The position numbers and the translations under genes are program-made. Shown here piece by piece: positions 53,838 through 64,000 of a stretch of DNA of 64,000 bases. Every line of letters starts with the position of its first letter. Within the stretch, counting starts at the first letter, position 1. Below the pieces are notes generated by a model that did not search any database, was not told the DNA's origin, and saw nothing but the letters and a program-made list of their open reading frames with translations. The stretch covers positions 248,001 through 312,000 of the forward strand of contig NZ_VXDC01000001.1 of the NCBI RefSeq assembly GCF_008711285.1, read 5' to 3'. The DNA comes from Roseibium aquae (GTDB taxonomy: Bacteria; Pseudomonadota; Alphaproteobacteria; Rhizobiales; Stappiaceae).

Positions 53838-54109
53838 GGTGTGTTTCGTTGGCATCTTGTTTGGGACTGCACCCTTGCCGGATTTGATGCCAACGGGCTG
53901 TCCGCTTTCAATATCGTGCCATCGGCGTGCTGCCGACCTCTTGCCAACAAGGCAGGCCTTGACGGTTTGCCGGCAATCTGGAGGCGGTGCCGCGCGGGCC
54001 TGTTTTTCACTCCGCTGATTTGGCCGCACGCTTTGGTCCTGACCGCGCCTTGCGTTCAGAAGGTTCTTCGCCGTAAGTGAGTCCCCTGTTCACAAGAAAG
54101 ACGACACCC

Positions 54110-55390
54110 ATGGCAAGTCAGAATTTCCCATGGTCTGCCCAAACCGCTCGCCAGCGTGCGGTAGACGCGTTCGACCGCTTGCAATCCCGGCCGGCAGAGC
54201 ATGCGGCCATCTATACCAAAGCGTTCGATCCCGCGGACCAGGATCTTCATGGTGATCCGGCGCATCCGCTATCCGGCGCTTTGATCAGCGTAAAGGCACT
54301 GTTTGACGTGAAAGGCGAAGTGACAACCGCCGGTGCGGATGTCTTGCGCGCGTGCGAACCGGCGCAAGAGGACGCGCCGGCGATCGCAAACCTGCGCGCG
54401 GCTGGTGCCGTGTTCACGGGCCTCACAAACATGTCCGAGTTCGCCTATTCGGGCCTCGGCCTCAATCCCCATTTTGGAACGCCCGAAAATGCGGTTTTCC
54501 CAGGTTGCGCGCCAGGCGGGTCCACAAGCGGAGGCGCTGTCAGTGTTGCGCGGGGGCTTGCGGACATCGCCATCGGCAGCGATACGGGCGGGTCACTTCG
54601 GATCCCGGCCGCCTTCAACGGCCTTGTCGGGTTCAAGCCGACCCAAGCCTCGGTATCGCTTCAAGGCGGCTGCCCGCTGTCCGATACTCTGGACAGCTTT
54701 GGTCCGATGTCCCGGTCGGTCGCAGCCTGCGAGCTGGCGTGGCAGGTCATGGCGGGACGGGACGTGCTGCCGGTAAAGCCACGCCTTTCGCGTTTTATCG
54801 TGCCCGAGAACTTCGGTTTCAATGAGATGGATCCGGCAATCCGGAAGGGATTTGAGCGGGTCGTGCGAAGCCTTCAGTCGGGCGGCGCCGACATCGAAAG
54901 ACGCAAGCTCGCCTGTATTGAGCCTTATGATCAGATCCCGCCTTGGCATTTCACGTCGGTGGAGTCGCGGGCCCATTACGAGAATTTTTTCGTCAATCAG
55001 GCCTCCCATATGGATCCCCGCGTTCACGCCCGCATGGGGCGTGCGGATGAGATCAGTGCAGTGACCTATCGCCAAAGCCTCAATCGCCGAAAGGCTTTCG
55101 TGAAAGTCTTCGCCGAGGAGTTGGGTGATGCCTTGCTCTTGCTGCCGACGACACCGATCCTGCCGCCCGCGTTGGCGCGTCTCGAGGACGACGCGGTGTT
55201 CAACAGCTTGAATCTGTTGGCCCTGCGCAATCCGTCTCTGGCGAATATCGCCGATGGATGCAGCATTGCGCTCCCCTTTGTCGACGGCGGGCTTGTCTTG
55301 AGCGCTATGTTGATCGGGCCAAACGGCCATGACCATCAATTGCTCGCATGCGCAAAGCATATCGAACCGCTTCTGGCCGACATGACTTGA
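54110..55390 (+). CDS. Amidase signature family hydrolase
   Basis: A 426-residue cytosolic amidase. The Ser-cisSer-Lys triad is visible: Lys62 in ALISVKALFDVKG, the GGSTSGG loop around 136-142, and the nucleophile Ser162 in GSDTGGSLRIPAAFNG. Members cleave amides such as indoleacetamide, malonamate or glutamine. In this location, beside a NicX-like ring-cleavage enzyme, an amide-hydrolysis step of an N-heterocycle pathway is possible; the known maleamate amidase NicF belongs to another fold. It is divergent from bchE and converges with the TRAP genes. Confidence 0.88.
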   Translation: MASQNFPWSAQTARQRAVDAFDRLQSRPAEHAAIYTKAFDPADQDLHGDPAHPLSGALISVKALFDVKGEVTTAGADVLRACEPAQEDAPAIANLRAAGAVFTGLTNMSEFAYSGLGLNPHFGTPENAVFPGCAPGGSTSGGAVSVARGLADIAIGSDTGGSLRIPAAFNGLVGFKPTQASVSLQGGCPLSDTLDSFGPMSRSVAACELAWQVMAGRDVLPVKPRLSRFIVPENFGFNEMDPAIRKGFERVVRSLQSGGADIERRKLACIEPYDQIPPWHFTSVESRAHYENFFVNQASHMDPRVHARMGRADEISAVTYRQSLNRRKAFVKVFAEELGDALLLLPTTPILPPALARLEDDAVFNSLNLLALRNPSLANIADGCSIALPFVDGGLVLSAMLIGPNGHDHQLLACAKHIEPLLADMT

Positions 55391-55444: not shown

Positions 55445-56758
55445 TTATCCCATCAAAGTTGGCAGAAGGGTCGCGAAAGCCGGAAAGGCAATCAAGAGAC
55501 CCAGCCGGATGATGTCGGCGATCCAGAAAGGCGTGACGCCCTTGAAGATCGTGCCGGTTGAAACTTCCGGCATCACGCCGCGCAGGACAAAGACATTGAG
55601 CCCGACAGGAGGCGTGATCAGGCTGATTTCCGTCACCACCACGACAACAATTCCGAACCAGATCAGCACCATTTCCGGCGGAACACCGGGAAACACCAGC
55701 TCTGCGATCATTGGATAAAAGACCGGCACGGTCAGCAGGATCATCGACAGGCTTTCCAGAATACAGCCAAGGACGAGATAGACTGCGATCACGAACATCA
55801 AAACCATCAGCGGCGACAGATCCATGGACTGGACCCAATTGGTCAAAACCGTCGGCAGATCGGCGATGTTGATAAAGTTGGAGAACATCAGGGCGCCGAT
55901 CAGCACGGAGAAAATCATGGCCGTGGTGCGCACGCTTTGAACCAAGATCTCGCTCAAGCTGGCCCAGGTCAGTTTTCTGCGCGCCAAGGTGAACAGAAAT
56001 GCCCCACCGGCACCGATTCCGGCAGCCTCCGTGGGTGTGAAGATCCCGCCATAAATGCCGCCCATCACCAGAAGAAACAGAACGATGACGCCCCACACGC
56101 CGCGCAGGGCCCGTAGCCGTTCGGACCATGGCATGCGGTCGCCCGGAGGGCCAGCCTTTGGGTTCAGCCAGGTTGTTGCCCGCACGGCACCCAGATAAAG
56201 CAAGATGCCCAACAGGCCCGGCAGAACCCCTGCCATGAAGAGTTGGCCGATATTCTGTTCGGTCATGATGCCGTAGAGCACCAGAATGACACTCGGTGGA
56301 ATGAGGATCCCGAGCGTGCCCCCGGCGGCGACCGACCCGGCTGCCAGGCTGTCCGAATAGCCGAACCTTTTCATGGAGGGCATGGAGACCCGCGCCATTG
56401 TCGCAGCCGTTGCAAGACTGGACCCGCAAACAGCGCTGAAGCCGCCGCAGGCCACCACTGTGGCCATCGCCAATCCGCCTTTGCGGTGCCCGAGAAACGC
56501 ATTGGCCGCGTCGTAGAGTTCTTGTGACAACCCCGCACGGGTTACGAAATTCCCCATCAGGATGAAGAGCGGGACCACCGACAGGGTGTAAGCCAGTCCG
56601 GTCTCGTAGGTGACCGTTCCGATCATGGCCAGCGCGGCATGCCAATTTACCATGTAGGCAAATCCGACGGTTCCGACCAAGCCCATGGCGAATGCGATGG
56701 GAACCCTGAGAAGAATAAGTGCGAGCAGAGCGGCGAAGCCGACGAGGGATTCCAGCAC
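55445..56758 (-). CDS. TRAP transporter large permease (DctM family)
   Basis: A 437-residue twelve-helix membrane protein. MLESLVGFAALLALILLRVP and the segment GTLGILIPPSVILVLYGIMTEQNIGQLFMAGVLPGLL are typical for DctM. It forms the Na+-driven translocation channel of a TRAP system with the DctQ protein upstream. The three TRAP genes run dctP-dctQ-dctM in one operon. Substrate is probably a carboxylate but is not set by sequence. Confidence 0.95.
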   Translation of the reverse strand: MLESLVGFAALLALILLRVPIAFAMGLVGTVGFAYMVNWHAALAMIGTVTYETGLAYTLSVVPLFILMGNFVTRAGLSQELYDAANAFLGHRKGGLAMATVVACGGFSAVCGSSLATAATMARVSMPSMKRFGYSDSLAAGSVAAGGTLGILIPPSVILVLYGIMTEQNIGQLFMAGVLPGLLGILLYLGAVRATTWLNPKAGPPGDRMPWSERLRALRGVWGVIVLFLLVMGGIYGGIFTPTEAAGIGAGGAFLFTLARRKLTWASLSEILVQSVRTTAMIFSVLIGALMFSNFINIADLPTVLTNWVQSMDLSPLMVLMFVIAVYLVLGCILESLSMILLTVPVFYPMIAELVFPGVPPEMVLIWFGIVVVVVTEISLITPPVGLNVFVLRGVMPEVSTGTIFKGVTPFWIADIIRLGLLIAFPAFATLLPTLMG

Positions 56759-56780
56759 GGTCGGTCCTTAAGTCTTGATG

Positions 56781-57287
56781 TCAGTCGGACGAAAAACTGT
56801 CGCGAAGGGTGGCAGCCGTCATGAAAAGCAAGGCGGCGCAGCTCAAGGCGGTTGAAAAGCTCATGAAAAAAGTCACCGGAGCGACCGGGATATTGAGCGC
56901 CGCCGTTTGATCTCCATAGGACACCTGTTCGACCGCCTTCAGCCAAAGGCGGTGGCTGAGGATGCCGAGCATTCCAGCGCAAAGCAGATTGATGAGGTTG
57001 TCCCGTACGATCTGGAGACCTTTGGGCATCCAGAAGTCCAACAGGTCGACGGACACGTGCTCACGCTGAACGGTGACCAGTGGCAAGCCCGCGAAAATCA
57101 GCGTCGCCATCATCAACTCGGTGATCTCGAACGCGCCGGCAAGCGGGGAGTTGAAGATGTAGCGGCCCCACACATCGATGAAGGTCAGAACCATCATGGC
57201 GAACAAGAGCGCGCCCGCGGCGGACTGAAGAATGCGAAGCGCCCAGCGGGCGCTCCGTATTTCTTCGATTTTGTTGCGGGACGCCAC
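56781..57287 (-). CDS. TRAP transporter small permease (DctQ family)
   Basis: A 168-residue protein with four hydrophobic helices, including FIDVWGRYIFNSPLAGAFEITELMM, the DctQ signature, and QREHVSVDLLDFWMPK. It starts 2 bases after the dctP stop and precedes dctM by 22 bases. It links the binding protein to the large permease. Confidence 0.93.
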   Translation of the reverse strand: MASRNKIEEIRSARWALRILQSAAGALLFAMMVLTFIDVWGRYIFNSPLAGAFEITELMMATLIFAGLPLVTVQREHVSVDLLDFWMPKGLQIVRDNLINLLCAGMLGILSHRLWLKAVEQVSYGDQTAALNIPVAPVTFFMSFSTALSCAALLFMTAATLRDSFSSD

Positions 57288-57289
57288 GA

Positions 57290-58324
57290 TCAGTTCGAGC
57301 CGGACGCGGCCGCGATTTCTGCCCGAAGCTCCGCCATGATGGCGGCGCCGTCGAGGCCTTTGGCATTGGCTTCCTCGATCCAGGCCTGTTCGATTTCAGC
57401 CGTCTTGGCTTTGATCTCCGTGACCATGGCGTCCGAGGCCTGGATGAGGGTAACCCCGGCCTCCATCATCGCGGCATTTCCGGCCGCGTCGGCATCGTCC
57501 CAGCCCTTGCCGGCAATCTTGGCGAAATGTTCGCCGGAGACGCTCATGATCGCTTCCTGGTCTGCCGCGGACAGATTGTCGAAGGACCGGGGGTTCATGA
57601 CGAGGAAAAAGCTGGTGTTGTAAAGGCCGCCTGGAACAATGGTGCCGTATTTGACGAGATCGGTGAGCCTGAATGACTTGATCGATTCTTGCGGGAAGAA
57701 CACGCCATCGGCCACCCCTGCGGCCATGAGCTCATAGGATTCAGGAGCCGGTTTGAGAAGGGCGGTTGCGCCGATCGCCTTTGCCACGTCGTTCACAACG
57801 CCGCCGCCAACGCGGATTTTCAGACCGTCGAGATCGGACAACTGTTCGACGGGACGCGCGGAATTAAAGATATTGCCAGGACCGTGGGTGAACAGGCCAA
57901 GCACTTTCACTCCGCGATGCTCTCCGACCGCCTCAAAGTGTTTCTGGTAAATGCGCCAATAGGCAACCGAGGTTGCCGTTGCGCTGTCGCCGAGAAATGG
58001 AAGCTCAACGGCTTTCGTGAGGGCGAAGCGCCCAGGCTGATAGCCGTGCACACCGTAGGTGATATCGGCCAGGCCATCCTTGGCGATGTCGAAATGCGCG
58101 GGCGGCTTGCCCAGTGGTTTCGGCAGGATTCGGACGGTCACATTGCCGTTCGTAGCTTTCTCCACCTCTTCTGCCCACGGAACGATCATGTTTGCCACGA
58201 TCGGGTGAGACGGTGGCAGCCAAGACGACAGATTCAATGTGGTCTGGGCGCTGACAGGTCCGGCAACGAGCGATGCCACGACGGCGGCCGCACCGAGTGT
58301 GATCGATTTAAAATTCTTGAGCAC
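57290..58324 (-). CDS. TRAP substrate-binding protein (DctP family)
   Basis: A 344-residue periplasmic solute receptor. A signal peptide (ITLGAAAVVASLVAGPVSAQ) precedes LNLSSWLPPSHPIVANMIVP. The DctP core GLKIRVGGGVVNDVAKAIGA with the carboxylate-binding Arg region follows, then YNTSFFLVMNPRSFDNLSAADQ. The ligand is probably an organic or aromatic acid used by the neighbouring enzymes. It is the first gene of the transporter operon, after a 174-bp promoter region. Confidence 0.94.
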   Translation of the reverse strand: MLKNFKSITLGAAAVVASLVAGPVSAQTTLNLSSWLPPSHPIVANMIVPWAEEVEKATNGNVTVRILPKPLGKPPAHFDIAKDGLADITYGVHGYQPGRFALTKAVELPFLGDSATATSVAYWRIYQKHFEAVGEHRGVKVLGLFTHGPGNIFNSARPVEQLSDLDGLKIRVGGGVVNDVAKAIGATALLKPAPESYELMAAGVADGVFFPQESIKSFRLTDLVKYGTIVPGGLYNTSFFLVMNPRSFDNLSAADQEAIMSVSGEHFAKIAGKGWDDADAAGNAAMMEAGVTLIQASDAMVTEIKAKTAEIEQAWIEEANAKGLDGAAIMAELRAEIAAASGSN

Positions 58325-58471
58325 GGGGTTCCTCCTCCCACCAACACGCCGCAGCGATGATTGGATCTATCTGCTACTGTTCAGTCCGCTGTTGAATTCG
58401 GTCCGGACTGCACTCCTCCCAAGCCAGTCTAGACTGCGTTTTCGGGTCCTCCCAATTAAATTCTTTCCATA

Positions 58472-58487
58472 GACCGACTGGTCAGTC
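58472..58487. promoter_or_regulatory. TetR-type operator-like palindrome upstream of dctP
   Basis: GACCGACTGGTCAGTC has the symmetric pattern GACYGAC-YR-GTCRGTC, which is common for TetR-family repressors of acyl-CoA metabolism genes. It lies 148 bases upstream of dctP and 12 bases past the ligase stop. No tetR gene is in the window, so a regulator encoded elsewhere would be needed. Confidence 0.4.
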
Positions 58488-58498
58488 AATTCTAATGA

Positions 58499-60025
58499 TC
58501 ACGTGCCGGTCTTGAAGAAGTTGTCTGCCAATAGTAGCTCGCGCACCGCGAAACGCTGGATCTTGCCCATGGCATTCACGGGCAGGCTGTCGGCGACGTG
58601 AATGCGTTTGGGATGCTTGAAACGCGCAATGCGGCCTGAGAAACGCGCCATGATCTCGGTGACGTCGAGGTGACAGCCGGCCGTTGGCACGACCACGGCG
58701 ACAGGTACCTCTCCCCATTTCTCGTCCGCTTCTCCGACAACGACGGCCTGCGCGATATCATCCATATCCATGAGAAGCCGCTCCACTTCTGCGGGGTAGA
58801 TGTTTTCGCCTCCCGAAATGATGACATCTTTCTTGCGATCGTTGACGACCAGATAGCCGTCCGGATCAATGAAGCCGATGTCACCGGTGAAAAACCAGCC
58901 CTCTTTGAGGGCATCGGCAGTCGCTTGCGGGTTGTTCCAGTATTCCCGCATGATATTCGGTCCCTTGATCGCGATTTCCCCGGCCTCTCCCGGCCGCACC
59001 GTTCGTCCCGCGTTGTCAATGATTTTCATCTCGCAGTGCAGACCCGGTTTGCCTGTCGTGCCAAGATGGCGAAAGGCGTCCTCTGGTTTCAGATAAACCG
59101 CGATCGGGCAGGTTTCGGTCGAGCCATAGACCTGGAGGACAGGGATGCTTCGGTTATGGAACGCAAGAATAAGGCTTTTGGGAACGGTCGAAGATCCGGT
59201 GGTAAGGGACCGAAGACTGCTCAAGTCGGTCTCTTGAAAATCCGCATGGGCGAGAACCGCCGCCATCGTCGCCGGCACGAGAACCGTCAAGTCCGGACGG
59301 TCCCTGGCGATCGCGGCCAGTGTCTCCGCCGGATCGAACTTGGCATGAAGATAGACGGTCCCGCCAGCGTAGAGGGCCGGGAGTGTCTGAATGTTCAGTC
59401 CGCCCACGTGGAACATCGGCAAGACACTCAGGATCCGGTCTTGGCTGGTCATGTCATGCATGTGAAGGCTGTTGAAGGCGTTCCACTGAAGCGCATCCTG
59501 GGTCAGGACCGCCCCCTTCGGATATCCGGTTGTTCCCGATGTGTAGACCAGAAGGACGGCATCTTCCGGTTTGCCGTCGTCAACATGTCTTTCGGCTGCC
59601 ACGGACTGTCCAAGGCAGGCCCAGTCCGGTCCAGAGGGCGCCGTGGACACGAAACGGCAGTCCGGAAGATCGTGCCGGAGGTTTTCTGCGCCCGGGTGAA
59701 AGGCGGGTTCCGCGATCAGCAGCTTTGCGCCTGCATCAGACAGAATGAAGCCGTGTTCTTCCGGCGCAAGCCGCCAGTTCAGCGGAAGGAAGATCGCTCC
59801 ATGGCGCGCGCATGCGAACAGCAGAATCAGAAATTCCGGGCTGTTGTGACCAAGATAGGCGACCCGGTCTCCCTGGCTTAACCCAAAGCGCCCGGAAAGT
59901 TCCCCGGTTCTTTCCTCAATGCGGCGCGCTAGCGCGGCATAGGTGATGGTCTCGCCCTCGAACACCAGCGCCGCCTTGCCGGGCGTGAACGCGGCGTGTT
60001 TGTCGATCCAGGACGCGATGCTCAT
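58499..60025 (-). CDS. AMP-forming acyl/aryl-CoA ligase
   Basis: A 508-residue ANL-superfamily enzyme. Core motifs in order: YTSGTTGYPKGAVLT (A3), LQVYGSTETCP (A5), GWFFTGDIGFIDPDGYL (A7), DRKKDVIISGGENIYPAEVE (A8) and the catalytic Lys in PVNAMGKIQR (A10). It activates a carboxylic acid to its CoA thioester. The A4 region FHVGGLN does not define the acid. It overlaps the stop-start junction with the acyl-CoA-dehydrogenase-like gene by one base, so the two are co-transcribed. Confidence 0.92.
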   Translation of the reverse strand: MSIASWIDKHAAFTPGKAALVFEGETITYAALARRIEERTGELSGRFGLSQGDRVAYLGHNSPEFLILLFACARHGAIFLPLNWRLAPEEHGFILSDAGAKLLIAEPAFHPGAENLRHDLPDCRFVSTAPSGPDWACLGQSVAAERHVDDGKPEDAVLLVYTSGTTGYPKGAVLTQDALQWNAFNSLHMHDMTSQDRILSVLPMFHVGGLNIQTLPALYAGGTVYLHAKFDPAETLAAIARDRPDLTVLVPATMAAVLAHADFQETDLSSLRSLTTGSSTVPKSLILAFHNRSIPVLQVYGSTETCPIAVYLKPEDAFRHLGTTGKPGLHCEMKIIDNAGRTVRPGEAGEIAIKGPNIMREYWNNPQATADALKEGWFFTGDIGFIDPDGYLVVNDRKKDVIISGGENIYPAEVERLLMDMDDIAQAVVVGEADEKWGEVPVAVVVPTAGCHLDVTEIMARFSGRIARFKHPKRIHVADSLPVNAMGKIQRFAVRELLLADNFFKTGT

Positions 60026-61299
60026 CAGTCGTCGCTTTCACCACGCTCATAGAGGGCTTCGCGTCCGAGCCGGTCGACGCAGAGTTCAGCCGTCCAGGGC
60101 AGCATGAGCGACCCGCACCGGCTGTCGCGGTACATCCGCTCCAGCGGCAATGTCTTGAGCATGGACTGCCCGCCACAGGTCCGGATCGCTAATTGGCAGA
60201 TCTCATTGGCGTTTTCCATCACCGTGTATTGCGCGGCATAGGCCCGCAGCATCTGTTCCTTGGTCGGGTTGGGACCAGCTTCGCTGATGACCTGGAACCA
60301 CAGCGCCTTGGTCTGCTCCAGTGTGATATGCATGCTCGCCACCGCATGCTGTTTGGTGGGATACATGCGCCGCTTGACGGGCGGGGTGCCCGGCATTTCG
60401 CCGCGCAAATATTTCACCGTGAAGTCATAAGCGGCCTGCGCGATTCCCATATAGGTTGGCGACAGCGTCAGGAACATGTGCGGCCAGGTCGTCGCCGCCT
60501 CGAAATATACGCCCTTGGGCATCAGCGCGGCGTCCTCGGGGACAAAGACATCCTTGAACACGAGGTTCCGGGACACTGTTCCGCGCATCCCCAGCGGGTC
60601 CCAGTCACCGAACACCTCGACGCCTTGGGCATCGGCCGGTATCGCCAGATAGAGCGTGTCCCGGCGGCTGAGATTCTCCTTCTCCTCGGTGCAAAGCACG
60701 CCGTAATAGTTCGCCGCACCCGACAATGAGGCGAAGATTTTCTTGCCATTGACGATCCATCCGCCTTCGACCCGCCTGGCCGTCGTGCCGAAAGGTTGAA
60801 AGCCGGCTGCCGCTGCTCCACCCTCGGAAAAGGGTTGGGCGTAGATCGCGCCATCGTTGACGATCCGCGCGTAATGAACAGACCGGCGGGTCTCGTGCTC
60901 GCGTCTGGCTTGCGGATCCATCTTGAGATCATCGGCCAGCACGCCCGGCCACAGCGTTGAGCACACATGCATGTTCCATGTGAGCGATGTCGTTCCGCAA
61001 TGGCGGCCGATTTCGGCGGCGGTCAGCATGTAGGTCTTGTAGTCAGCCCCATATCCGCCTTCTTCCGTCGGGATGCAAACCGCCAGCAATCCGTTAGCGT
61101 GCATGTCCCGAAAATTGGCCATCGGGAAGATCGCGTCCCGGTCCCATTGGTCGGCGCGGGGCGCCAGACTGTTTTGACCGAAGCGGCGGGCCAGCGCCGT
61201 CAATTCGGCCTGCTGGTCCGTGAGGCGGAAGGCATCTGGATCAAAAATCGGGGCAAGCGTGTCATGCGCGTCCAGAATATGGGTCTCGGCAAGGGACAT
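60025..61299 (-). CDS. Acyl-CoA-dehydrogenase-fold flavoprotein with altered catalytic motif
   Basis: A 424-residue protein with the three-domain acyl-CoA dehydrogenase layout: helical N-terminus (LTDQQAELTALARRFGQNSL), middle beta domain (AQPFSEGG, WIVNGKKIFASLSGAAN) and C-terminal helical domain (IRTCGGQSMLKTLPLERMYRD). After RDSRCG the stretch usually containing YEGT/GEGT reads MLPWTAEL, so the common catalytic Glu is absent at that position. It could be a dehydrogenase with its base elsewhere, or a flavin-dependent monooxygenase working with the nearby flavin reductase. Confidence 0.85.
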   Translation of the reverse strand: MSLAETHILDAHDTLAPIFDPDAFRLTDQQAELTALARRFGQNSLAPRADQWDRDAIFPMANFRDMHANGLLAVCIPTEEGGYGADYKTYMLTAAEIGRHCGTTSLTWNMHVCSTLWPGVLADDLKMDPQARREHETRRSVHYARIVNDGAIYAQPFSEGGAAAAGFQPFGTTARRVEGGWIVNGKKIFASLSGAANYYGVLCTEEKENLSRRDTLYLAIPADAQGVEVFGDWDPLGMRGTVSRNLVFKDVFVPEDAALMPKGVYFEAATTWPHMFLTLSPTYMGIAQAAYDFTVKYLRGEMPGTPPVKRRMYPTKQHAVASMHITLEQTKALWFQVISEAGPNPTKEQMLRAYAAQYTVMENANEICQLAIRTCGGQSMLKTLPLERMYRDSRCGSLMLPWTAELCVDRLGREALYERGESDD

Positions 61300-61312
61300 T
61301 GGGCTCTCCCAT

Positions 61313-62092
61313 TCAGCTTTCGGTAAGGAATTTCAATAGTGCAGCATTGAAGGCTGCCGGGTGTTCGATGTTGGCCAGATGACCGGTGCCGGGCAGGCGG
61401 ACATAGCGGGCGCCCGGTATTTTCGAGGCCATTTTTTCCATCATCGCCGCCGGGGCCTGCGTGTCGGTTTCTCCCGCGATCAGCAGCGTTGGCACGCCGA
61501 TGGACGTGAGCGCAGCGCGGCGGTCGAAGGTAACCAGACACGCCATCATCGCCCGATAGGTCTCCGGTGGAACGCGGCTCATGCACTCCTTGGCGGTGGC
61601 CTTTGCCGCGTGGCTGGCGTGCGGTCCGACAAGTTCGGGGATCACGCTGTCCGCGATATCCGCCAAGGTTTGGCCCGCCTCGAGCGGTGCCAATCGGGCC
61701 GACACGAATTGTTTTTGAAAGTCGCCATCCAGCCGGCCGAAGGCAGGACTGGTCGCGGACAGGGTCAAGCTGGCCAGCCCATCTGGATGCATCGCCGCGA
61801 ATTCCTGCGCGACCATTCCTCCGATGGAATGTCCGACAATATGCGGCTTCTTCAGATCAAGCCGGTCGATCAGGCTTTTAAGCGCGCGCGACAAGGCGGA
61901 AAAGGAAACCTCGTCCAAAGGCGACGAGGCGCCATAGCCCGGCATATCCCAGGCGATGACCCGGTAGCGATCGCTCAGGCCTTCCAACTGGGCGGACCAA
62001 CTGGCGGAGCCGCCGCCGATCCCATGCAGCAAAACCAAGGGATCGCCGCGACCCGCTTCCTGCCAGGCGATCTGAAAGCTGCCGCTGGTCAT
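61313..62092 (-). CDS. Alpha/beta-fold hydrolase (PcaD/NicD-like)
   Basis: A 259-residue hydrolase. LVLLHGIGGGSASWSAQ is the oxyanion loop, IVGHSIGGMVAQEFA the nucleophile elbow (Ser near 97), AGETDTQAP holds the acid and GTGHLANIEHP the His. Similarity in style is to 3-oxoadipate enol-lactonase and N-formylmaleamate deformylase (NicD) types. Start 62092 overlaps the NicX-like gene by 4 bases. Coupling to a NicX-like ring-cleavage enzyme favours a role on the cleavage product, but this is inference. Confidence 0.85.
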   Translation of the reverse strand: MTSGSFQIAWQEAGRGDPLVLLHGIGGGSASWSAQLEGLSDRYRVIAWDMPGYGASSPLDEVSFSALSRALKSLIDRLDLKKPHIVGHSIGGMVAQEFAAMHPDGLASLTLSATSPAFGRLDGDFQKQFVSARLAPLEAGQTLADIADSVIPELVGPHASHAAKATAKECMSRVPPETYRAMMACLVTFDRRAALTSIGVPTLLIAGETDTQAPAAMMEKMASKIPGARYVRLPGTGHLANIEHPAAFNAALLKFLTES

Positions 62093-63135
62093 GCAAGTTC
62101 CCCGAGCAGGTTTCCGTCCTCGATCACGGTCGTTCCGTCCAGCGTGATGGTGCAATGCCCCACGGGGAGGTCGAAATGTCCGAGCGTGTAGCGTTTGGCG
62201 AATTCGTTCGCTCCCGTCGAAAACAGGAAATTGCCGGCATAGGCGCGCAACTCTGTTCCGTTGGTTTCCCTCTGGTCGTACATGGACAGCGCTTCATAGC
62301 GGGCGGCCGGGTTCATGCCCCAGCCCACATGAGACACGGCATAGGCGGCCGGATCGTCCCAGGCCGCGAAATAACGGCGCACCAGTTCGGCATCGGTTCC
62401 TTGCCCGGCGATGTCGACCACGTAGTCATTTTCAATGGTCAGGATCACTTGATCCTGCAGGTAGCGCTTGAAGGTCAGGTTGATGTCGCCCGCGTCCAGA
62501 ACGAGGCGGCCATTGACGGTGTTCGCCCCGGGGAAACTGACGACGACGCCGCCTGGCCAATGGGCCACCGTGCCCGGCCGGTCGCAATAGCCCCAAACCC
62601 CGGCGGTCGGGGCGCCGGTGAGGTCCACGGTCATATCCGTGCCGGCCGCCGAGTTCACGGTCATGAGGGTGGCGGCGCGCAGCATCTTCACCGCAGCTTT
62701 CACCTTGGGCATCAAAGCGGGATCCGGCAACAGACGTTCCAAAGCGTCGGGATGCTCGTTGCTAACCATCAAAAGGCGCGCGCCGCCCGAGAGGATCTCT
62801 GGCAGTTCCGGCGCATGCAGCATCCCTTCCACGGTCAGGTCCACCACCAGTCCGCTCGATTTCAAGGCGGCGATGGCGGGTTTCAAACCGCGGATGGCAT
62901 CGCTGGCCCCGGTTGAACGGACCGGTACGGCGACCCTTTGCGGCGGTGTGGGCAACACGACATGAAAGGGGCTGGCGCCGAGCCGGAGGAGGGCCAGTTC
63001 CGCCAGATGCACGTTCAGCTGCCTCGACTGCGTTTCCGAGAGGATCGCGACCGGTTCGCCCTTCCCGACCTTGCACAGGGCGAACACTGTCTCGAATGTG
63101 TCGATCCATTTCCCTTCGATGCGATCCGCCAGCAT
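62089..63135 (-). CDS. NicX-type (M29-like fold) ring-cleavage dioxygenase homologue
   Basis: A 348-residue protein that resembles 2,5-dihydroxypyridine 5,6-dioxygenase (NicX) over its length, as recalled from the Pseudomonas putida enzyme: PGTVAHWPGGVVVSFPG, LVLDAGDINLTFKRY, AVSHVGWGMNPAARYEAL and RAYAGNFLFSTGAN. The Fe(II) ligands expected for NicX are present as His269 (SHVGW) and the His320-x-Asp322 pair (LGHFDLP). NicX opens the pyridine ring of 2,5-dihydroxypyridine to N-formylmaleamate. The alternative label, leucyl aminopeptidase M29, reflects the shared fold. First gene of the minus-strand catabolic operon. Confidence 0.8.
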   Translation of the reverse strand: MLADRIEGKWIDTFETVFALCKVGKGEPVAILSETQSRQLNVHLAELALLRLGASPFHVVLPTPPQRVAVPVRSTGASDAIRGLKPAIAALKSSGLVVDLTVEGMLHAPELPEILSGGARLLMVSNEHPDALERLLPDPALMPKVKAAVKMLRAATLMTVNSAAGTDMTVDLTGAPTAGVWGYCDRPGTVAHWPGGVVVSFPGANTVNGRLVLDAGDINLTFKRYLQDQVILTIENDYVVDIAGQGTDAELVRRYFAAWDDPAAYAVSHVGWGMNPAARYEALSMYDQRETNGTELRAYAGNFLFSTGANEFAKRYTLGHFDLPVGHCTITLDGTTVIEDGNLLGELA

Positions 63136-63233
63136 GCACTTCTCTCCAGGCCGGTTTCCGGCTTCTACCGCGCCTCCGTGGAGGCAATCGGCTGCGAAAT
63201 TTCATTGTGCTGGGCATGCAATCACAGAAATTA

Positions 63234-63257
63234 AATTATATCAATCGGAATATAATT
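63234..63257. promoter_or_regulatory. AT-rich palindrome between NicX-like gene and flavin reductase
   Basis: AATTATAT (63234-63241) and ATATAATT (63250-63257) are perfect inverted repeats around an 8-base centre. They lie in the 166-bp divergent promoter region and are typical of a MarR-family operator; TATAAT-like -10 hexamers are part of both arms. The MarR gene encoded two genes downstream is the obvious candidate ligand-responsive repressor. Confidence 0.55.
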
Positions 63258-63301
63258 GTGATTTGGTATGGATCGGCTATTTCAGCAACGGGAGAGGCTT
63301 G

Positions 63302-63799
63302 ATGACGGCAAACCACCCCTTGAAAGATCTTCGCAAGGCGCTGGGACGGTTCACCACGGGTATATGCATCGCTGCGACGCGAAAGCCCGATGGAAGTCCG
63401 GTCGGCCTGACGATCAATTCGTTCAACTCGGTCTCGCTTGATCCGCCGCTTGTGCTCTGGTCAATTGCCGGACACGCGATGAGCGCCCCGGTCTTCAGTG
63501 AAGCGGAGGGATTTGCGATCAGTGTCTTGGGCGCCGATCAGCGGCAGGTCGCGGACAGGTTCGCTGGTCCGGGGGATCGCTTCGCCTTCGATGATTGGGC
63601 ATTTGGCGACCACGGCGCGCCGTTTATCCGCCGGGCTATTGCGGTGTTCGAGTGCCGAACGGTCTTCCAGTATGAAGGGGGAGATCACACGATTCACGTC
63701 GGCGAAGTGCTGAAACACTGGACCCGGCCTGGCGCACCGCTGATTTATATGGATGGCCAATACGGCCGGGCCTATCCTGCCGGCAAGGTTGCCTGTTGA
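63302..63799 (+). CDS. HpaC-like flavin reductase
   Basis: A 165-residue flavin reductase of the short-chain FMN/FAD type. The N-terminus LRKALGRFTTGICIAATRKP, then GLTINSFNSVSLDPPLVLW (flavin-binding loop) and FAISVLGADQRQVADRFAG are family marks; GGDHTIHVGEVLKHW closes the core. Such proteins supply FADH2 or FMNH2 to a partner monooxygenase. The start at 63302 follows GGGAGAGG; upstream in-frame codons have no support. It overlaps the MarR gene by one base. Confidence 0.93.
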   Translation: MTANHPLKDLRKALGRFTTGICIAATRKPDGSPVGLTINSFNSVSLDPPLVLWSIAGHAMSAPVFSEAEGFAISVLGADQRQVADRFAGPGDRFAFDDWAFGDHGAPFIRRAIAVFECRTVFQYEGGDHTIHVGEVLKHWTRPGAPLIYMDGQYGRAYPAGKVAC

Positions 63800-64000
63800 T
63801 GGAACGCAGCACAATGGCTCAGGCCGCCGGGCTCGAAGCCGGGGAGCCGGCCGCCGCCTTCGTCGACAACTACCTGTCCTACCTTCTCGCGCATGCCAGT
63901 CATCTGGTCAGCACTCAGTTCCACGCGCATCTGCGCCGGTATGGCGTGCAGGTTCCGGCTTGGCGGCTTCTGGCCACGCTGTCCGAAGGCGACGGCAAGA
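63799..64000 (+). CDS. MarR-family transcriptional regulator (3' truncated)
   Basis: The first 67 codons are visible, starting at an ATG that overlaps the flavin reductase stop (TGATG). The segment YLLAHASHLVSTQFHAHLRRYGVQVPAWRLLATLSE matches the dimerisation helix and the start of the winged helix domain of MarR regulators; the rest lies outside the window. Nicotinate catabolism in Pseudomonas is also under a MarR repressor (NicR), which fits the neighbouring NicX-like gene. Confidence 0.8.
   Translation, partial: MERSTMAQAAGLEAGEPAAAFVDNYLSYLLAHASHLVSTQFHAHLRRYGVQVPAWRLLATLSEGDGK

Follow-up and report, generated by a model that had tools for sequence, protein, structure and literature searches.

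A conserved module with a NicX-like dioxygenase in Roseibium aquae, a candidate for Rieske-free, CoA-dependent breakdown of auxin or a close relative

The described systems closest to the locus reported here are the iac and iad gene clusters for degradation of the auxin indole-3-acetic acid (IAA) and the nicCDEFX pathway of nicotinate catabolism. As presented in PMC9613470, every aerobic auxin operon characterised before contains iacCDEF homologues, and a genome-wide survey of auxin degraders was anchored on adjacent iacC and iacD. The iad pathway uses a coenzyme A (CoA) ligase and ends at anthranilate (PMC12633357, PMC9613470). We analysed a 64,000-nucleotide stretch of Roseibium aquae DNA (contig NZ_VXDC01000001.1, positions 248,001 to 312,000; "the window", with positions counted from its first letter). 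Near its end, it encodes a NicX-like Fe(II) dioxygenase together with an alpha/beta hydrolase, a flavoprotein of acyl-CoA dehydrogenase (ACAD) fold, a CoA ligase, a tripartite ATP-independent periplasmic (TRAP) importer, a flavin reductase and a MarR regulator. We read these genes as an operon under regulation that serves the CoA-dependent catabolism of an arylacetic acid, with IAA as the likeliest, a reading to which we give equal weight for and against. In the titles and abstract openings of the open-access literature searched, no auxin locus containing NicX or free of Rieske genes was found.

With the iad locus (Variovorax, Bradyrhizobium japonicum, plasmids of Sulfitobacter and Roseibium), the module shares a MarR of apparent IadR type with the IAA-contact residues, a TRAP importer (as in the Sulfitobacter loci) and anthranilate as the proposed end product; a CoA ligase is present too, at 30% identity to the iad ligases. 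However, it lacks the Rieske proteins IadCDE, the thiolase and the cyclase-family gene, and has the NicX-like dioxygenase, the ACAD-fold enzyme and the hydrolase instead. The iac locus (Pseudomonas putida 1290 type, and a Thioclava locus, L189) likewise has an ACAD-fold enzyme and a flavin reductase, and in Thioclava a related DctP, but the module is without the Rieske pair, includes a CoA ligase, and its ACAD protein gave no alignment at E 0.001 to the Thioclava IacA-like protein. Common to the module and the nicCDEFX pathway are the dioxygenase fold, the iron ligands, the residues His105, His189 and Arg293, and an alpha/beta hydrolase after the dioxygenase; in contrast to that pathway, Val stands for Glu177, the genome is without NicE or NicF, and a CoA ligase and an ACAD-fold enzyme are present.

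A conserved module in Stappiaceae and other Proteobacteria

NicX relatives were present in 28 of 87 genomes of the family Stappiaceae at E 1e-20, and the module type, with 69-100% identity, in 22 of the 87, the window genome included. In the other 21 module-bearing genomes the NicX-like dioxygenase, hydrolase, ACAD, CoA ligase, DctP, DctQ, DctM and MarR were each found 21 times. The order was the same in all: NicX-like dioxygenase, alpha/beta hydrolase, ACAD-like flavoprotein, CoA ligase and TRAP DctPQM, with MarR divergent; 19 of these loci also had the flavin reductase, likewise divergent. At E 1e-15, none of the module partners occurred at the six family loci with other NicX types, three of which had a 27-28% amidase.

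We then scanned a genome collection with the NicX-like protein and analysed the best 80 of at least 561 relatives, a sample skewed to close relatives and Bradyrhizobium, to which all counts out of 80 below refer. Co-conservation of the core was counted in the 48 of these loci with 7.5 kb or more of sequence on either side, the other 32 being too short. The ACAD gene was found in 46 of the 48, the ligase in 43 and the hydrolase in 43, and all three accompanied the NicX-like gene in 41. The hosts among the 80 included Bradyrhizobium, Tardiphaga, Stappia, metagenome-assembled genomes (MAGs) of Rhodospirillales and a small number of MAGs from Beta- and Gammaproteobacteria; a homologue in a Roseibium MAG was 87% identical to the window's NicX-like protein. 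The genes are a conserved module, whose enzyme core is also found in other Proteobacteria, Bradyrhizobium among them. A preliminary description of this DNA, made from the letters alone, had proposed to look for such shared neighbourhoods, and in this respect its grouping of the genes held. It did not hold for the facing amidase (54077-55390), which was absent from all 21 family loci at E 1e-15 and was rejected as a member; a BchE-like gene was likewise absent from all 21. Weak amidase relatives (at least 25% identity) lay near 5 of the 80 other modules, and the amidases of L098, L101 and the window scored 201, 171 and 185 bits against an indoleacetamide-hydrolase cut-off of 532.

The regulator and the dioxygenase

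The MarR gene was the most informative, and it points to an auxin-like acid (IAA) as the substrate class. The top PDB matches of its product were 3cdh (9e-31) and Variovorax MarR_73 (7kfo, 1e-29), with the next at 2.4e-13. Crystals of MarR_73 were obtained with IAA, for which MarR_3CDH has a KD of 0.24 uM (PMC9613470). According to the same source, Tyr15, Ala18, Trp45, Arg46 and Val65 of MarR_73 contact IAA, and Ser28, His32 and Arg46 its carboxylate (PMC9613470). The equivalents in the window protein are Tyr26, Tyr29, Trp56, Arg57, Ile76, Ser39 and His43. Hence the carboxylate contacts Ser28, His32 and Arg46 and the ring contacts Tyr15 and Trp45 (MarR_73 numbering) are kept, and the position of Tyr29 is Tyr in 3cdh too. 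Since the closest structures bind IAA and the carboxylate residues are kept, this protein may serve as a pointer to the substrate; by its residues it is of IadR type and is predicted to bind IAA.

The Ser-His-Trp-Arg set was found in 52 of 55 module MarRs (E <1e-12, the window included; 8 of the 55 seem to be re-samples of genomes already counted), the exceptions being L064, L084 and L107. A further five rows with weaker matches were left out of the count, two without the set (L067, L075), one with Thr-His-Trp-Arg (L053) and two that are other MarRs (L095, L143). In the window genome, 22 other MarR_2 matches passed the cut-off, many of them not full MarR proteins; one (L154) could not be aligned, and none of the remaining 21 had the set. 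Among them, L149 reads Ser-Ser-Trp-Arg, and L155 shows the set by BLAST and not by MAFFT. Relatives at 1e-10 were found in 24 plasmid records. Three of the four plasmid loci inspected were of iad type (two Sulfitobacter plasmids and one R. aggregatum plasmid), with a PDR reductase, a Rieske pair, an AMP ligase, a thiolase, short-chain dehydrogenases/reductases (SDRs) and a cyclase-family gene, and a TRAP importer adjoins these loci on both Sulfitobacter plasmids. On a Caballeronia plasmid, the MarR gene stands with a cyclase, a 2-aminobenzoyl-CoA monooxygenase/reductase (ACMR), an indolepyruvate oxidoreductase, a cupin and an FAH hydrolase. All three plasmid MarRs compared (L181, L182, L183) kept the set. 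The names iad and iac are given to these loci from their annotated products, read against PMC9613470.

At E 0.001, neither Pfam nor NCBIfam gave a match to the NicX-like protein, and its sole PDB match below E 0.7 was P. putida NicX (7cn3, E=5.7e-59). The preliminary description had rightly named His269, His320 and Asp322 as iron ligands, and Ser306 matches as well, the four corresponding to NicX His265, His318, Asp320 and Ser302. Of the substrate pocket, His107, His192 and Arg297 correspond to NicX His105, His189 and Arg293, and Leu104 of the pair Leu104-His105 is likewise kept. An AlphaFold model (mean predicted local distance difference test score, pLDDT, 90.7) reached a template-modelling score (TM) of 0.90 to NicX and of 0.56-0.65 to M29 aminopeptidases, so that the proposed comparison of the iron site and structure came out in favour of NicX. 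An M29 aminopeptidase identity was rejected by both sequence and fold, a judgement made from these two and not from a tree.

In NicX, Glu177 contacts N1 and O1 of dihydroxypyridine, and the E177A variant has 2.7% activity; dihydroxypyridine is the only NicX substrate reported there (PMC7910607). This position is Val180 in the window protein. Among 105 homologues, the 97 of the subfamily have Val or Ile (92), Thr (3) or Gly (2), and all 8 of other NicX types have Glu or Gln. Separately, NicX proteins of other types, found in Stappiaceae and Azospirillum (L054-L059, L148), have Phe at the position of P. putida His105. With queries from the Azospirillum nic locus and a cut-off of E 1e-20, we detected neither NicE nor NicF in the window genome; NicE was found in 1 and NicF in 2 (one of them partial) of the 22 module genomes, and three family genomes (G008, G009, G055) have NicX, NicE and NicF together. 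The nicotinate/maleamate pathway was therefore rejected, on the absence of NicE from 21 and of NicF from 20 of the 22 genomes and on the replacement of Glu177 by Val or Ile. As the preliminary description had supposed, the locus is not the nicotinate pathway; its list of classical nic genes was correct as to the absence of NicE and NicF here, but omitted NicD, the counterpart of the alpha/beta hydrolase. A homarine or trigonelline substrate was also considered and dropped, as literature titles linked neither to NicX-like genes. A search for literature on PDB 5gj7 found none.

Candidate pathway and competing readings

In acyl-CoA dehydrogenases, the usual catalytic Glu lies in the C-terminal motif, at the position used in short- and medium-chain enzymes (SCAD/MCAD). 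In the ACAD-fold protein this position is Pro401, with Pro in all 81 readable homologues, a count that covers that base position only. The model of the protein (pLDDT 83.8) matched ACADs and ACAD-fold monooxygenases with Z 33-36, and the two groups were about 3 Z units apart at most, so that the fold fits a dehydrogenase as well as a monooxygenase. TdaE of tropone biosynthesis is an ACAD-like flavoprotein that oxygenates a CoA ester (PMC8283759), so that enzymes of this type are able to oxygenate CoA esters; it is likened here by its description, and it differs from the module protein in substrate and pathway. The module CoA ligase was 30% identical to AMP ligases of iad loci and 26% to the ligase of the genome's own anthranilate operon. 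When an iad-type DctP of S. faviae was used as the query, the module DctP was the best of 10 matches in the window genome (1.3e-63; next 5.4e-47); it has 38-39% identity to DctPs of iad loci.

The genes beside the module in other lineages indicate a possible fate of the product. An SDR, an enoyl-CoA hydratase (ECH) and a bifunctional ACMR adjoin it in Bradyrhizobium (including the MAG L104), L095 and L111, and partial sets lie within the covered stretch in L087 (ECH) and in L088 and L101 (SDR and ECH); weak matches of 28-32% in L072 and L075 were left uncounted. We take the ACMR family, named bifunctional salicylyl-CoA 5-hydroxylase by PGAP/NCBIfam, to act on anthraniloyl-CoA. The window genome has its own operon on contig C37 (L143, 33000-52000) with ACMR (52-53% identity), SDR, MarR, ECH, ACAD, CoA ligase, tryptophan 2,3-dioxygenase (386 bits, cut-off 391) and kynureninase (274 bits, cut-off 246). 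The ligase there is nearest to the benzoate-CoA-ligase model (374 bits, cut-off 375). Because a tryptophan dioxygenase, a kynureninase and a benzoate-type ligase stand alongside, the substrate of this ACMR trio is most simply anthraniloyl-CoA. Benzoate-type ligases also lie beside the trio in L111 (328 bits) and beside the ECH in L087 (381 bits). Thus the 2-aminobenzoyl-CoA monooxygenase/reductase pathway adjoins the module in several lineages and is encoded elsewhere in the window genome; we propose it as the downstream route, separate from the module itself.

Related clusters on plasmids vary this theme. A 54-56% identical dioxygenase occurs on plasmids of Ensifer, Shinella, Aminobacter and Sinorhizobium (six records). 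In three of them (Ensifer L144, Aminobacter L145, Shinella L146) its companions, judged by annotation in Ensifer and Aminobacter and by similarity in Shinella, are the ACAD, a hydrolase, an APC permease and a ligase of glutamine-synthetase-like type, and the CoA ligase and TRAP genes are absent. Aminobacter has a gentisate-type cupin and an FAH hydrolase as well, which share 73% and 71% identity, respectively, with their Caballeronia counterparts. This pair suggests that a second ring is left after the NicX step, and hence that the substrate likely has two rings; the variants with the glutamine-synthetase-like ligase are possibly a version for indole amines (tryptamine, serotonin). The module ACAD retrieved seven plasmid records at E 1e-40, the six variant plasmids and one plasmid of a cyanobacterial MAG; on this Dolichospermum plasmid, the 59% homologue (L184:9995-11242) stands alone, its annotated neighbours including no other module genes. 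A Stappia-like genome (G075) has a second copy (L053:9379-16630) with a 49% dioxygenase, an alpha/beta hydrolase, a RebC-like FAD monooxygenase, MarR and TRAP genes, and without CoA ligase or ACAD.

The distribution of the module was also compared with that of iad. IadD (R. aggregatum query, E 1e-60) was found in 17 of the 87 family genomes and the module in 22, and no genome had both (hypergeometric P=0.004 over the 87 genomes); the IadD of G036 is identical to that of the R. aggregatum plasmid. The window genome had no IadD match at E 1e-60 and no Ring_hydroxyl_B (Rieske beta) protein, and has two Rieske alpha proteins.

Our best reading, with chances that we judge about even, is a Rieske-free route from IAA or a close indolic acid to anthranilate, in which we infer the substrate, the order of reactions and the products from the gene content, conservation, homology, sensor residues and genomic associations observed. 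The acid would be imported by the TRAP system and sensed by the MarR repressor, and the CoA ligase would convert IAA to indole-3-acetyl-CoA. Oxidation of the indole ring, at C2 for instance, would then fall to the ACAD-fold flavoenzyme, supplied by the flavin reductase in loci that have one. Next, the NicX-like Fe(II) dioxygenase would cleave the five-membered ring (C2-C3), breaking the bond that joins the oxygenated carbon to the adjacent one in the way NicX does with 2,5-dihydroxypyridine, and the alpha/beta hydrolase would take off the formyl or acyl group left behind. The anthranilate formed, free or as the CoA ester, would enter the 2-aminobenzoyl-CoA pathway. With slightly more doubt than belief, we extend this to a third aerobic auxin route that needs no Rieske oxygenase. 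In such a route, IAA would be processed while bound to CoA as a thioester, an Fe(II) dioxygenase of NicX fold, having switched from pyridines to indoles, would open the pyrrole ring, and anthraniloyl-CoA catabolism would take up the product; the glutamine-synthetase-like-ligase clusters would be sisters for indole amines (tryptamine or serotonin, for instance), and all of these would have been missed by surveys anchored on iacCD.

Several observations weigh against the IAA reading. The flavin reductase was detected in 38 and MarR in 35 of the 80 loci, the latter in none of the Bradyrhizobium ones. Outside Bradyrhizobium, only L095 and L111 have a full ACMR gene beside the module, and ACMR itself is not specific, being present in 72 of the 87 family genomes and in all 22 with the module; the window genome's own ACMR was for that reason rejected as a module-specific partner, and only neighbourhood was used. 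Within the genus, the exclusion between IadD and the module (5 and 10 of 45 genomes) was weak (P=0.27), and phylogeny may thus explain much of it. The module includes no thiolase, and its ACAD found no BLASTP match at E 0.001 in the IacA-like protein of the Thioclava locus, taken as one representative. Its DctP, 49% identical to that of this locus with an iac gene set, is no closer to it than to the importers of two homogentisate loci (48-49%), and equally close to one Hydrogenophaga aromatic locus. Finally, no operator motif common to this module and other modules or iad loci was found.

Among the competing readings, the one that survives best is a pathway of the same type for another acid (indole-3-lactate, -propionate, -carboxylate or (hydroxy)phenylacetate), with MarR and DctP as general arylacetate proteins; we consider it unlikely, yet worth keeping in view. 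The likeness of DctP to homogentisate importers fits it, and so do the Bradyrhizobium modules without MarR and the iad locus of B. japonicum USDA110 (PMC9613470). MarR_73 also binds other auxins and further aromatic ligands (PMC9613470), but the same source defines this regulator group by IAA loci, and the anthraniloyl-CoA neighbours and the second-ring enzymes of Aminobacter favour indole. Considerably less probable is a path to anthranilate that starts from indole or another neutral indole and runs through oxidation, ring cleavage and loss of the formyl group, with the module ligase acting last as an anthranilate-CoA ligase. Enzymes of these types would serve to oxygenate indole, cleave it at C2-C3 and deformylate it, and in L095 the ACMR follows the module ligase, no second ligase being detected in that locus. 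However, a separate benzoate-type ligase accompanies the anthraniloyl-CoA genes in the window genome, L111 and L087, and free indole gives little reason for a TRAP importer or for a MarR that senses a carboxylate. Least probable of all, and already unlikely from the dioxygenase, is the CoA-activated pyridine carboxylate suggested in the preliminary description, which agrees with the NicX fold, iron site and most pocket residues but not with Val or Ile for a Glu whose loss nearly abolishes NicX activity (PMC7910607), with the missing NicE and NicF, or with a regulator of IAA type. Its broader idea of a CoA-activated heterocyclic acid still describes the likely substrate; regulator, neighbours and distribution speak for an indole acid.

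The IAA reading would have consequences beyond this genome. The module looks like a candidate for an undescribed CoA-dependent breakdown of auxin or a close relative in many bacteria of soil and sea. If it degrades auxin, many Alphaproteobacteria (including Bradyrhizobium, Tardiphaga, Stappia and marine lineages) would have a route that has not been counted, which would matter to root growth and to algal-bacterial exchange. The NicX fold, otherwise known from vitamin B3 breakdown, would gain a new class of substrate.

Gene layout and accompanying genes

The genes from DctM to the NicX-like dioxygenase form one minus-strand run (55445-63135), from which the flavin reductase and MarR diverge (Table 1). 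Open reading frames and Pfam matches agreed with the gene positions and the divergence given earlier. The window end truncates the MarR gene. For the hydrolase, ATG 62092, which gives a 4-base overlap with the dioxygenase stop, is a more probable start than TTG 62155.

Table 1. Features of the locus, in window coordinates
Feature	Position	Strand	Basis
DctM, TRAP large permease	55445..56758	-	PF06808 E=6e-92; adjoins module in 21/21 relatives
DctQ, TRAP small permease	56781..57287	-	PF04290 E=1.7e-24
DctP, TRAP solute-binding protein	57290..58324	-	PF03480; related to arylacetate-locus importers
AMP-forming acyl-CoA ligase, proposed indole-3-acetate (arylacetate)-CoA ligase	58499..60025	-	PF00501 E=2.9e-87
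ACAD-fold flavoprotein, proposed ring-oxidising enzyme on CoA ester	60025..61299	-	Pfam ACAD domains
Alpha/beta hydrolase, PcaD/RutD-like	61313..62092 (open frame to 62155)	-	PF00561 E=2.3e-36; 21/21 relatives
NicX-like Fe(II) dioxygenase, Val180 replacing NicX Glu177	62089..63135	-	Sequence and structure comparison with NicX
Divergent intergenic region, presumed regulatory	63136..63301	.	Position; imperfect AT-rich palindrome
Flavin reductase	63302..63799	+	PF01613 E=1.1e-37; 19/21 relatives
MarR regulator, predicted IadR (auxin-binding) type	63796..64000, on to 64284 past the window	+	Sequence matches, contact residues

Further genes were observed near the module in particular lineages. An opine-dehydrogenase-like and a 3-hydroxyacyl-CoA-dehydrogenase-like gene accompany it in Bradyrhizobium relatives and Hwanghaeella (L115:11051-13132, L062:17629-19712), and were found in 30 and 31 of the 80 loci, respectively. 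Upstream of the NicX-like gene, a malonyl-CoA decarboxylase lies amid ABC transporter genes in eight loci (L088, L093, L097, L100-L103, L110). Past the window end (L003:1696-8532), the module is followed by a PAS/LuxR regulator, an M20 peptidase and an oligopeptide-type ABC transporter, and genes of these three kinds adjoin it in two further Roseibium genomes (G058, G047).

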